From Pseudoduganella lutea (GTDB lineage Bacteria > Pseudomonadota > Gammaproteobacteria > Burkholderiales > Burkholderiaceae_D), in the NCBI RefSeq assembly GCF_004209755.1, contig NZ_CP035913.1, forward strand, positions 3,720,001 to 3,784,000: 64,000 bases of DNA. Direction: 5' to 3'. Below, piece after piece: positions 9,813 to 21,777 of the stretch. The position numbers and the translations under genes were made by a program. Under the pieces are notes generated by a model. The model ran no database searches. It worked only from the letters and a program-made list of their open reading frames with translations, and was not told the DNA's origin. Each line of letters opens with the position of its first letter. Positions within the stretch are counted from its first letter, which is position 1.

Positions 9813-10013
9813 TCAAACCGTCGCCGACCAGTCCCCCGACTTGCCGCCGTGCTTCTCGCGCACGCGGATCTCGCTCATCACCATTCCCCGGTCCACGGCC
9901 TTGCACATGTCGTAAATGGTCAGCAGCCCCACCTGTACGGCCGTCAGCGCCTCCATCTCGACCCCCGTTTTCCCGTAAGTCTCGACCTGCGCCCGGCAGT
10001 GCACCGAGGAAGC
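9813..10013 (-). pseudogene. moaC: Duplicate 3' end of moaC (65 codons) at the left element boundary
   Basis: This 201-bp stretch aligns without gaps to 21298-21498, the last 65 codons plus stop plus a few nt of the intact moaC. There are 11 mismatches; none changes the encoded residues, which run from SSVHCRAQ to SGDWSATV. Homology ends abruptly at 10013, where a different sequence begins. It has no start of its own. It is best read as the left attachment-site copy left by insertion of the element that lies between the two copies. Nine of the 11 differences fall in the last 45 bp, on the element side, so part of this copy probably came with the element. Confidence 0.93.
9850..9935. repeat. 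attL core: 86-bp perfect repeat
   Basis: The longest perfectly identical block shared with 21335-21420, inside moaC. Strand exchange must have happened in or next to it. The first flanking mismatches are at 9849 (G versus A) and 9936 (T versus C). The exact crossover cannot be placed within the identity block. Confidence 0.8.
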
Positions 10014-10046
10014 GGCCATGCTTAGAAACGATTCTTGGCCCACAAA

Positions 10047-10065
10047 TGGGACAAAAATGGGACAG
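10047..10065. promoter_or_regulatory. Left pair of TGGGACA(A/G) repeats (putative integrase arm sites)
   Basis: TGGGACAA at 10047 and TGGGACAG at 10058, 11 bp apart and in the same orientation. An equivalent pair lies near the right end (21167 and 21178). Matching spacing at both ends suggests arm-type binding sites for the integrase. Confidence 0.6.
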
Positions 10066-10224
10066 AGTCCCTGGTATAAGTGTAGCACTTGGCTACGTGG
10101 TTGTGCTGATGACGTTACCGGCTTTTATACCCGTTCATCTCGTAGTGTCTTTGCTGCTCAACAAGCAGTAGAATATTTATGGGCCCTTACATTAGGGATC
10201 GGAACATGTTGTACGAGGAAGATC

Positions 10225-11154
10225 GTGGCACGTAAAAACCGGATTTCACACGCTTTGTACTTGAAGGACTGGGACTTCAAGAAAAAGGATATTGCTACTT
10301 TAGAAGAAACAGCAGAGGCCATTGCACCTGGAGATTACTTGCAGGAAATGAAAGATGGTATATTCTGTCCAACTTGCTATACTCCACTTTTCCGCTCTCC
10401 ATCTGATAAGCCCTTTTTCTCGAACAGACGCAATGCTCGATATAATCATTACGAATCCTTCTTGCATGTGCCTTGTCCACTTCGGGCTCCCAAGGCAATT
10501 GCGTTAAAATACGACTCGGAAGAGCTTGCGCGACAGGCAGTAGAAAATGGTGAGCTTGCTGTAGTACATTCTTTTCAAACGGCAGCGCCAGATGTAGATG
10601 CACAACAAGTTGGTGCCGGTGGTGTGGGTTATTACCAGGATGCTGATGGGCCCGTTGGCTCTTATCCAATATCACGGCACAAGGGAGAAAGTTTTAGGCT
10701 CCCAACAAAAATATCGGCCGTATCAAGTATATGTCGAAGGTTTGACTTAAATCTAAATAAGTACTATCTATTGCCGGGTCGAGCTGTTGCACTACCCTTG
10801 ACAGAAGAATTGCTAGACCTTGCAACTATAACTGAAGAGGACCCGAATCCCAGATTGTATTTCGCTAAGATTTTGCATTCCGATAGAATGGGGGCGAATG
10901 ATGTTGTTCATTTGAGGATGACTTACTTCAAGTGCAATCCGAAAGTAAAAGATTTCTGTTTGAAAGCAACGATTGCTGAGCAACGAGAAAAAGGTATTGA
11001 CGATGAGGTACGTCATCGCTATGTTCTCATTTGGGGCGCTGTCACGGCTAGCGGGATAGGACTGTGTATAAATAGACCTAAATGGGGTGAGTATGCACTT
11101 CTCCCGCAAAAATACGAACCGCTTTTGCCAATTGCGGAAGAATCCTCTATGTGA
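10225..11154 (+). CDS. Unknown protein with CPTC motif (island cargo)
   Basis: 309 residues from GTG 10225, which has GAGGAAG 4 nt upstream. An open frame reaches back to 10018 but crosses the repeat region and has no ribosome site. The N-terminal part has a Cys/His-rich stretch (FCPTC at about 49, a nearby NHYESFLHVPC) that faintly recalls the nuclease-associated zinc region of CoiA-like proteins. The rest matches nothing I recognise. Low GC, first gene inside the left end of the element, alone on the plus strand for about 350 bp. It is probably cytoplasmic because no membrane segments are seen. A role in defence is suggested only by location. Confidence 0.7.
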   Translation: MARKNRISHALYLKDWDFKKKDIATLEETAEAIAPGDYLQEMKDGIFCPTCYTPLFRSPSDKPFFSNRRNARYNHYESFLHVPCPLRAPKAIALKYDSEELARQAVENGELAVVHSFQTAAPDVDAQQVGAGGVGYYQDADGPVGSYPISRHKGESFRLPTKISAVSSICRRFDLNLNKYYLLPGRAVALPLTEELLDLATITEEDPNPRLYFAKILHSDRMGANDVVHLRMTYFKCNPKVKDFCLKATIAEQREKGIDDEVRHRYVLIWGAVTASGIGLCINRPKWGEYALLPQKYEPLLPIAEESSM

Positions 11155-11214
11155 GGGATAAGACCATCAGTAACTTAACCACTTGATTTATATCTTTAGT
11201 GCCCTCTGCTCTAA

Positions 11215-19745: not shown

Positions 19746-20167
19746 GTGTATCCTTTCGAGAAGGGCCTACGAAGGCGCTGAATTTCCTATGCATGGCAAG
19801 GTCCGTTGATAGTTGATAGATATATAAGTGGCCGGTCATCCGCGTTAGCTGTTCTGCCGCCCGGATTTGCGTTCACAATGAAATGATGACACGGCCTTAC
19901 TGACGAGTCAAATAATTCTTGACTTCTCGTTTGGGGTGTGCATATAAAGCTGAAGGGTTCGTTACAGATTTATACGGGACAGCGTTCCGGCGATGTCTAC
20001 CACATGAAGAACCGGGGGAATTCCAGGCTGATTCGCGCACATAGCTAAGCAAAGTCGGTTTATTTCAGTGTCGAAACAGAGCCGACAATCCAGTAAAGCA
20101 TGCTGCTAAGGAAGCCAAGAGGGCACCCATGCATCTTCCCATCTACCCGAAGAAGGGTAGCCCCTCG
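19746..20167. other. Gap between hypothetical gene and integrase end
   Basis: About 420 bp, no supportable gene. A possible plus-strand promoter (TTGACT near 19919, TATAAA 18 bp later) points away from any called gene. Otherwise I see no repeats or hairpins of note. Confidence 0.35.
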
Positions 20168-21154
20168 CTAGCCAAGCTTCTGTGCCATCGCCTCTGCCTT
20201 CGGGTGATAGTATCTTTTCAACATCTGGATTGTTTGGTGGCCTGTGACCGCAGCAAGCTCGATTACGTTTGGAAGTTTCTCTGCTAGCCGACTCGTGGCT
20301 GTATGTCGGAGGTCATGGAACCGAAGATTTGCTATCCCAGCCCTCTTGCATGCTGCAACAAAACAGTTGTGCATAGTCATATGAGAGGTAGGGAAAACGA
20401 CGCCACTTTCGCTGTAGCTCGGCAGTTCCTTCAATATTGCGACTGCTTTTCTTGAGAGCGGAACCGTACGCGCTGTGCCGTTCTTTGTAAGGGGAAGGTA
20501 CGCTGTCTGGGCCGTGAGGTTGATGTGCTCCCACCGAAGCGACAGTAACTCACCCCTACGCATTGCGGACTCCAATGCCAACGTGACCAAAGGAACCATC
20601 CACGAGCTTCTACGGCGGATGGGCCGGAGTTCAGCTAGCAGTCGAGCCTCTTCTTCTGAGGTGAGCAGTCTGGTACGCCCCGGTGGCGTTTGTGGCTTGC
20701 GTACAAGGGCACACGGATTTGCAGTCGGTAGGCCCCACTCCTTCCGGGCATGACTGATGATGCCTGACAGGATGCTTAGCTCGCGGATAATGGTTCCTGC
20801 ACCGACTGTTCTCAGCCGTTCATCTCGATATGCGGCTACGACGCCAGGCGTAAGATTCAACATGCTGTAGCTGGCGATCTTCTGACGAAGCATGAACTGG
20901 ATGCCTTCGGCTTCGCGTTGTGCTCCACGCTTAGAGGGCGTCACCTCGTTCCTGTACCGCTGAAGTATGTCGGAAAGCAAAACATCTTTTGCAGCTTGGA
21001 TGCTCTGATGCGATCCATGTTCCATAGCGGATTCAATGGATCGAGCCCATGTCTGGGCTTCAGTTTTCGTTTTGAAGGAGGCTACCTCGTCTGGGTAGCC
21101 TTTGCGTCGTACACGGGCTTGCCATGTACCTGATCGTTGTCGGATTGATGCCAT
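20168..21154 (-). CDS. int: Tyrosine recombinase (phage-type integrase)
   Basis: 328 residues. N-terminal arm-binding beta region (SGTWQARVRRKGYPDEVASF), a core-binding helical domain, then the catalytic domain with R199 (SAMRRGELLSLRW), K224, H280-x2-R283 (FHDLRHTATSRL), H306 (VTGHQTIQ) and the nucleophile Tyr315 (MLKRYYHP). All catalytic residues are present, so it should be active. It integrates and excises the element at the moaC site. The gene lies 144 nt from the right moaC copy and is transcribed away from it. The right-hand TGGGACAA pair sits 13-31 nt upstream of the ATG, so binding there could also repress the gene. Confidence 0.95.
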   Translation of the reverse strand: MASIRQRSGTWQARVRRKGYPDEVASFKTKTEAQTWARSIESAMEHGSHQSIQAAKDVLLSDILQRYRNEVTPSKRGAQREAEGIQFMLRQKIASYSMLNLTPGVVAAYRDERLRTVGAGTIIRELSILSGIISHARKEWGLPTANPCALVRKPQTPPGRTRLLTSEEEARLLAELRPIRRRSSWMVPLVTLALESAMRRGELLSLRWEHINLTAQTAYLPLTKNGTARTVPLSRKAVAILKELPSYSESGVVFPTSHMTMHNCFVAACKRAGIANLRFHDLRHTATSRLAEKLPNVIELAAVTGHQTIQMLKRYYHPKAEAMAQKLG

Positions 21155-21166
21155 ACGCCTTCCTAT

Positions 21167-21185
21167 TGGGACAAGCGTGGGACAA
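21167..21185. promoter_or_regulatory. Right pair of TGGGACAA repeats (putative integrase arm sites)
   Basis: TGGGACAA at 21167 and 21178, 11 bp apart, same orientation and spacing as the left pair at 10047/10058. It lies just upstream of the integrase start. Confidence 0.6.
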
Positions 21186-21297
21186 GAATCAATTTTCTTC
21201 GCTTCGCCGGATGGATGCTGGCGTTAGAAGCCAACAAGGCGGAGTTGGATGATGACTGCGAGGATAAGAGGATTTACTTATACGAATCAACTAGTTA

Positions 21298-21777
21298 TCA
21301 AACCGTCGCCGACCAGTCCCCCGACTTGCCGCCATGCTTCTCGCGCACGCGGATCTCGCTCATCACCATTCCCCGGTCCACGGCCTTGCACATGTCGTAA
21401 ATGGTCAGCAGCCCCACCTGCACGGCCGTCAGCGCCTCCATCTCGACTCCTGTCTTGCCATAAGTCTCCACCTGCGCCCGGCAATGAACGGAGGAAGCCT
21501 CTTCGTCCGTCTCGAAATCCACGGTCACGCGGGTCAGTGCCAGCGGGTGGCACAGCGGCACCAGGTCGCTCGTGCGCTTGGCGCCCATGATGGCGGCGAT
21601 GCGGGCGATGCCGAGTACGTCACCCTTCTTGGCAGTTCCCGATAGAATGATGGCCAGCGTTTCCGGTTTCATCCGGATAGTGCCGGTGGCAACGGCGATG
21701 CGGTGGGTTTCGGCCTTGGCGCCGACGTCGACCATGTGGGCCTGGCCGGTGGTATCGAAATGGGTGAGTTCGGACAT
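21298..21777 (-). CDS. moaC: Cyclic pyranopterin monophosphate synthase MoaC
   Basis: 159 residues, full length. MoaC converts the MoaA product (3',8-cyclo-dihydro-GTP) to cyclic pyranopterin monophosphate in molybdenum cofactor synthesis. Signatures: MVDVGAKAETHRIAVA, GTAKKGDVLGIARIA, LVPLCHPLALT, the active-site KAVDRGM and C-terminal EKHGGKSG. The last 65 codons lie in the duplicated attachment region, so the 3' end is probably supplied by the integrated element, restoring a functional gene after insertion. Its 3' end therefore differs synonymously from the copy at 9813. Confidence 0.97.
   Translation of the reverse strand: MSELTHFDTTGQAHMVDVGAKAETHRIAVATGTIRMKPETLAIILSGTAKKGDVLGIARIAAIMGAKRTSDLVPLCHPLALTRVTVDFETDEEASSVHCRAQVETYGKTGVEMEALTAVQVGLLTIYDMCKAVDRGMVMSEIRVREKHGGKSGDWSATV
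21335..21420. repeat. attR core: 86-bp perfect repeat
   Basis: Right partner of 9850-9935; identical over 86 bp and embedded in intact moaC. Confidence 0.8.

Follow-up and report, generated by a model that had tools for sequence, protein, structure and literature searches.

A tyrosine-integrase island in moaC of Pseudoduganella lutea that appears to rebuild the end of its target gene

The moaC locus and its integrase

In the window (the whole 64,000-nucleotide stretch of Pseudoduganella lutea contig NZ_CP035913.1 analysed here), the molybdenum cofactor gene moaC is followed on its own strand by a gene for a tyrosine integrase, and a second copy of the moaC end lies about 11.5 kb away. The segment between the two copies is interpreted as an integrative island of 11,485 base pairs (bp). 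The defining features are:

21298..21777, minus strand: moaC, putative working hybrid copy (TIGR00581/NF006870; crossover mapping)
21298..21498, minus strand: repeat, right copy (codons 94–159 plus stop)
20168..21154, minus strand (that of moaC): tyrosine integrase, 328 amino acids (aa) (coordinates, PF00589, phrog_1)
9813..10013, minus strand: repeat, left copy, interpreted as an island-derived arm plus the displaced native moaC end

The identity of moaC was established with the NCBIfam model TIGR00581 (207.9 bits, cut-off 141.5), and a sequence search also matched its product to solved MoaC structures. To judge from its reading frame, the gene appears open and complete after insertion, encoding a 159-aa MoaC in which the NF006870 match spans residues 1–157. 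Across the whole 7.5-Mb, single-contig genome there are only two moaC matches (E ≤ 0.001), and these are the two copies of a direct, ungapped repeat of 201 nucleotides (nt) at 9813–10013 and 21298–21498. The copies are spaced exactly 11,485 bp apart and are identical at 190 of 201 positions. Identity stops directly past the TGA at one end and at codon 94 at the other, and all 11 differences are synonymous and in third codon positions, both copies encoding the same 66 residues and TGA. Ten of the differences fall within the first 78 nt and one in the last 123 nt (hypergeometric P = 4e-4), a clustering that is the key to the anatomy of the island. If every single-base change were equally likely, the chance that all ten differences in codons 94–119 would be synonymous is about 1e-6, and therefore both copies derive from moaC genes that were functional until recently. 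GC content is 49.3% between the repeats, against 62.4% and 65.5% in the flanks. A scan for promoters and terminators around moaC and the integrase gene gave counts close to those of shuffled sequence, with no terminator-like site between the two genes.

The integrase gene begins 143 bp behind the moaC stop codon. Its product matches the Phage_integrase family (PF00589, E = 1.4e-27) and looks intact, with R..HxxR..H..Y motifs whose residues we take to be catalytic. The first-pass annotation, made from the letters of the window, had described the moaC-end repeat, a foreign-looking segment between its copies and an intact tyrosine recombinase beside the right one, and all three descriptions hold.

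Relatives of the integrase were sought in genomes of the same family (cut-off 1e-40; matches in 77 of 294), order (1e-75; 20 of 399) and class (1e-70; 13 of 369), as well as in public genome contigs, which gave five loci; the searches score few candidates per genome. Neighboring genes were inspected at 66 loci, comprising the best 30 family places, the order and class places, the five contig loci and genome G059 (G, L and C numbers are our own identifiers for genomes, loci and contigs); weaker family matches lie outside this sample. Fifteen of the 66 loci, from 14 genomes, are situated behind moaC on the same strand, with 90–159 bp between the end of the MoaC match and the start of the integrase gene. 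These genomes are the window, Massilia niastensis, M. brevitalea, Duganella sp. BJB476 (taken to be G046), D. qianjiadongensis (taken to be G032, two loci), G059 (in which the integrase is broken), G224, G139, G328, G149, G190, G473, G590 and G943; the first-pass annotation had suggested a search for such elements. None of the other 51 loci adjoins moaC, and 26 of them, including that of G471, have a tRNA gene 72–175 bp before the integrase gene (ARAGORN). At the 25 non-moaC loci without an ARAGORN tRNA, no common protein target was found behind the integrase gene when the frames were read by eye, and some of these frames resemble, again by eye, translated tRNA genes.

An integrase tree was built from 63 rows, excluding L065, L054 and the broken G059 copy; in it the 13 moaC rows and G471 form one clade with support of 100/98. 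The clade integrase lies behind moaC in 14 of 15 genomes and beside tRNA-Pro in the fifteenth, G471; outside the clade, none of 50 loci adjoins moaC and 25 adjoin a tRNA gene. Since about half of the other relatives examined are at tRNA genes, a protein gene may have taken over from an RNA gene as the target of this branch. A branch of the moaC rows alone has weak support (71/12; 68% of bootstrap trees), so that a single switch of target is no more than a possibility. The tRNA-Pro site of G471 (L103) is a candidate for the ancestral target type. Members of the clade are spread over three families of one order plus one genome, G943, of another order (sharing only the class). Searches with the integrase gave no match among viral contigs, one plasmid record (41%) at E 1e-60, and 26 phage records at E 1e-40, all below 60% and at 39% among the matches listed.

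Proposed crossover core, arm-type sites and empty sites

A second moaC end was found in 11 of the 14 moaC-linked genomes, and no stop codon interrupts any of the 14 working moaC genes, those of M. niastensis and M. brevitalea being read in two pieces. An apparent doubling of moaC in M. brevitalea proved to be a scaffold overlap around an N. Exact identity between right and left copies runs over codons 120–148 in the window, 127–146 in M. brevitalea, 119–141 in G032, 117–153 in G224, 120–153 in G473, 122–146 in G590, 129–148 in G943 and 95–140 in M. niastensis. The intersection of the runs in these eight clear pairs is codons 129–140; the remaining three pairs (BJB476, G059 and G149) are more diverged and have short runs only. 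The cleanest pair is that of M. brevitalea, in which 34 differences over 198 nt leave a 59-nt identical block with divergence on both sides (permutation P = 5e-5). The features mapped from these comparisons, and from the search for arm-type sites, are:

21358..21393, minus strand: crossover core, right copy (codons 129–140; intersection of identity runs in eight right/left pairs)
9873..9908, minus strand: crossover core, left copy (right core shifted by 11,485)
21298..21357, minus strand: putative island-rebuilt moaC end (codons 141–159 plus stop)
9813..9872, minus strand: putative displaced native moaC end
9909..10013, minus strand: putative island-carried moaC-like left arm (codons 94–128), with 10 of the 11 synonymous differences
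21167..21185, minus strand: paired arm-type sites TTGTCCCA, 11 bp apart, right end
10047..10065, minus strand: paired arm-type sites TTGTCCCA and CTGTCCCA, 11 bp apart, left end

Given the shared codons 129–140, and assuming a single crossover site for the clade, moaC upstream of the core would be native and moaC downstream would have been brought by the island. The working moaC thus appears to be native as far as about codons 129–140 and island-supplied for the remainder. In the window the rebuilt and displaced ends differ by one base (codon 148), and they differ more in M. brevitalea, M. niastensis, D. qianjiadongensis, G059 and G224. The first-pass annotation had proposed that the element carries its own synonymous moaC end; the supply of an end by the island stands, but the cluster of synonymous changes is not in the rebuilt end, 10 of the 11 lying in the idle left arm. 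The conserved MCKA segment of MoaC is encoded within the core, which hints at the reason why the gene must be rebuilt by the island. K131 within the core and D128 beside it are presumably active-site residues (E. coli numbering).

At each end of the island stands a doubled motif, TTGTCCCA or a sequence close to it, whose two copies are co-oriented and exactly 11 bp apart; in the window the left and right pairs have the same orientation. The scan covered 11 elements (G139, G328 and G190 were left out). Left ends have the pair in 10 of the 11, the nearer site starting 119–167 bp before the core centre, and right ends likewise in 10 of the 11, starting 120–192 bp after it. On its own, TTGTCCCA occurs four times in the window against 1.55 expected, and 6 of 100 shuffles reach four; this is not rare enough, so that only the paired arrangement across islands carries weight.

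Within the genus, moaC is present in 72 of 74 genomes. Beside the window, 71 genus genomes were compared, of which three carry the clade integrase (G032, G046 and G059) and two a second partial copy only (G028 and G072). Among the 66 with neither, 43 have at least one of pilA, FHA and sucD behind moaC, genes that in the window lie beyond the left copy. Their position directly behind moaC marks these loci as empty sites, which the first-pass annotation had suggested looking for. None of the three genes is seen in the stretch examined of the other 23, and for 16 of these only 1.5 kb was covered.

We conclude, with a probability of about 0.89, that an 11,485-bp integrative island was inserted into moaC by a tyrosine integrase, with a crossover in codons 129–140 and the gene end rebuilt. 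The sequences themselves show the repeats, the open hybrid gene, the moaC-tied integrase clade, the shared core, the paired motifs and the empty sites. In the proposed mechanism, the integrase would bind the paired arm sites at both island ends and exchange strands within moaC codons 129–140 (MCKAVDRGMVMS). Insertion would separate the native last 20–30 codons from the gene; they would become the left copy, 11.5 kb away, and in their place the island would join its own version of the moaC end in frame, making the gene whole. The moaC-like DNA that the island carries upstream of the core (codons 94–128) would then sit idle in the left copy, and excision would release an 11,485-bp circle. Arm binding and strand exchange by this particular integrase, one crossover site for the whole clade, excision as a circle and the dependence of moaC activity on the rebuilt end are inferred. 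An element targeting the 3' part of moaC, leaving the gene whole and predicting a circle of 11,485 bp had been proposed at the outset, and both the repeat spacing and the crossover mapping support it.

Several observations weigh against this conclusion. Neither an excised circle nor a same-strain empty site was seen, and no excisionase was recognised in the island open reading frames (ORFs) scanned. No left copy was found in G139, G328 or G190, and G471 is at tRNA-Pro despite its place inside the clade. A single mismatch in M. niastensis sets the 3' limit of the core. In G032, M. brevitalea, G473, G149 and G943 the two copies are on separate contigs, and in M. niastensis they are spread over three, so their pairing in these genomes is presumed. 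The arm-site pattern was composed after the sequences had been seen, and G149 has no motif pair at either end. Another, degenerate moaC end, covering codons 81–119 and 115–158 and containing a stop, is present in M. brevitalea on contig C114 (L096 12961–13195) in addition to the two island copies. Finally, G028 and G072 carry a second partial moaC without a clade integrase in the stretch examined (see later).

Cargo, left arm and alternative explanations

Between its ends the island carries the following genes:

10018..11154, plus strand: cargo ORF, no family
13281..13910, minus strand: serine recombinase, resolvase/invertase type (PF00239, phrog_125)
14121..14747, plus strand: cargo ORF with a sub-threshold HEPN match (PF05168, 17.4 bits, cut-off 22)
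15284..16747, minus strand: P-loop ATPase, Sll1717 family (NF047389, 254.8 bits, cut-off 75)
16919..18079, minus strand: HNH-type nuclease ORF (71% relative in the M. niastensis island)
18140..18487, plus strand: Rha/anti-repressor-like regulator (phrog_63, E = 6e-13; PF09669 below cut-off)
19038..19745, minus strand: cargo ORF, 235 aa (relatives in the M. niastensis (41%) and G059 (36%) islands)

The true start of the first ORF is probably further in, because its 5' part overlaps the arm sites; in M. brevitalea, the left contig of the island encodes a relative of its 378-aa product (residues 68–371). The serine recombinase shows weak similarity (26%) to counterparts in the stretches from BJB476 and G059, and the HNH ORF had no match among solved structures at E 0.1. 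The ATPase has a VirB4-like NCBIfam match of 15.8 bits (cut-off 590) and a DS41_1_antiphage match of 48.7 bits (cut-off 370), and PADLOC returned weak partial matches only, all to this protein (best 32 bits). Pairs of direct repeats of 45 nt and 38 nt lie inside the island at 18930–19035 and 12139–12338, and are possibly binding sites for an island protein. Elsewhere in the window, at about 25050–25245, the same peptide KLGTYPCL(E/K)EIS(F/S)KQGYVPS is encoded on both strands, and an inverted repeat is probably present there. Ten island ORFs scanned with PHROGs included no phage structural, packaging or lysis genes, and Pfam and NCBIfam scans of ten proteins each found no relaxase or type IV secretion genes. 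The integrase with its motifs, the moaC-end repeats, the open target and the empty sites in relatives are features of a target-gene-regenerating tyrosine-integrase island.

An island of this origin might by now be stuck, with an integrase that reads as intact and excision that has ceased. That no excisionase, relaxase or phage structural gene could be recognised among the ORFs scanned, and that the integrase of the related G059 is broken, speak for such an immobile state, which is compatible with the proposed origin. Set against it are the integrase motifs, the presence of both site pairs and a core that is identical in the two copies, and we consider loss of mobility the less likely condition, if a realistic one.

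In three islands, those of the window, M. niastensis and M. brevitalea, the moaC DNA begins at codon 94; in the other eight it begins only at about codons 115–129. The nearer left arm site is 162–164 bp from the core centre in the long-arm islands, and 167 bp (G032) and 166 bp (BJB476) in the closest islands without a long arm; the distance is shorter, however, in G059 (153 bp) and in G224, G473, G590 and G943 (119–131 bp). Among the nearest relatives, then, island DNA has apparently given way to moaC DNA with little change in length. Compared with the host gene, the long arm is identical in M. niastensis (134 identical bp); that of the window shows ten purely synonymous changes, and in M. brevitalea there are changes of amino acids. 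These comparisons suggest that the long arm was overwritten through recombination with host moaC. It is conceivable, and we put it forward tentatively, that in a Massilia-like branch the attachment site is a host-tracking mosaic, in which moaC codons 94–117 replaced the island DNA that lay between the left arm sites and the core, and are refreshed by recombination with host moaC. If so, the extra moaC homology could help the island to settle in new hosts or to leave by RecA.

Alternatively, and closest to the first-pass annotation, the crossover could lie near codon 94, at the left edge of the repeat, so that the island supplies all of the last 66 codons and the left copy is wholly native. The junction between island and moaC at codon 94 is common to the window, M. 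niastensis and M. brevitalea, and the all-synonymous differences would fit two once-functional gene ends. Nor does comparison with moaC genes of the genus single out a native copy upstream: over codons 94–119 the best match is 71/78 for the right copy and 69/78 for the left, an about equal fit. However, a codon-94 site cannot be clade-wide when the left copies of other members begin at codons 115–129, it leaves the 59-bp identical block at codons 127–146 of M. brevitalea unexplained, and identity at that edge in the window extends over only 8 bp. A crossover at codon 94 is accordingly judged improbable, and exchange within codons 129–140 is preferred.

The second partial copies of G028 and G072 lie about 0.9–1.1 kb behind moaC (G072, L071 3380–3622; G028, L072 3089–3148). 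The first-pass annotation had named relatives with both moaC copies and no integrase as evidence against insertion by the integrase, and taken at face value these two genomes are such relatives; in view of the island-like right ends described below, we read their second copies as decayed or different elements, a reading that is not proven. The main moaC of G072 has an unusual C-terminus. When 68 genus genomes without the clade integrase were scanned for sequence resembling the right end of the island after moaC, three matches were obtained, with 25 of 26 bases in G039 (shuffle maximum 17) and 19 of 26 in both G028 and G002 (shuffle maximum 16). The sequences in G039 (L153) and G002 (L026), which have no integrase nearby, and in G028 may be scars of lost islands. 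An island-like right end also seems to follow the second copy in G072 (by eye only). In BJB476 (L069 1894–2267) the left copy is followed by sequence resembling the island right end and by an integrase fragment (residues 127–163), which suggests two islands in a row, the second perhaps older. The integrase-free copies in G028 and G072 might be taken to indicate a plain segmental duplication or homologous exchange, by which an extra moaC end came to lie next to an integrase gene that has nothing to do with it. This is hardly credible when 14 of the 15 genomes of the integrase clade have the gene at moaC, in one orientation and at a narrow range of distances, when a single core is common to the copies, and when both ends are flanked by paired motifs.

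Relation to known integrative elements

Islands dedicated to one housekeeping protein gene by a group of tyrosine integrases have been described at other genes, including dusA/trmE (PMC8409611) and guaA (epsilon15/CMGI-3), for which the text of the paper speaks of the guaA 3' flank (PMC8138268); the moaC islands resemble these as far as they are described there, and the genes differ. With P4-like islands they share a layout in which the integrase gene is just behind the target gene, as it is at 26 of the 51 non-moaC loci, but the P4 target as given in that source is a tRNA gene (PMC8138268). The arm-type sites have a counterpart in the HE-PICI/fis PICI integrase clade, for which the published description gives a doubled co-oriented motif at 81 bp and 132 bp from the attP centre, found via comparison of many instances, in a clade that repeatedly targets prophage late genes (PMC10111431). 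That description and the moaC islands agree in having such a motif to either side of the attP centre, although motif, target and spacing differ, the sites of the moaC islands starting 119–167 bp before and 120–192 bp after the core centre.

One earlier association of moaC with an island is that of CMGI-A of Cupriavidus metallidurans, where the moaC gene Rmet_4428 is tabled as a border gene (PMC7019866). Unlike the island described here, CMGI-A is 87 kb long with 63.2% GC, and its table row gives no integrase or repeats; the two are compared by description only. A search of MoaC against plasmid records gave 66 records, with no Cupriavidus among the best 60 of the 66. Use of moaC as an integrase attachment site was not found in the literature searched, a search that took in main texts and not supplements, so that island surveys may list it.

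The closest parallel is e14 in icd (isocitrate dehydrogenase) of E. coli, where, in the text consulted, the element supplies the 3' end and a displaced counterpart is left (163 bp; PMC6379469); attP is likewise described as able to hold a substitute for the target gene, the blocks of identity reaching about 250 bp, as at icd (PMC10111431). By analogy, the moaC island would work as e14 does, as a gene-regenerating integrase island: as those accounts present e14, insertion is site-specific and within a protein-coding gene, the 3' end is supplied and a displaced pseudo-end is left (PMC6379469, PMC10111431). It differs from e14 in its target, in having no recognised phage structural genes, in the moaC-like arm upstream of the core, and in an integrase whose relatives are mostly at tRNA genes where a target was called. 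With moaC, the natural landing sites of integrases would gain an enzyme gene for which the core and arm sites have been mapped.

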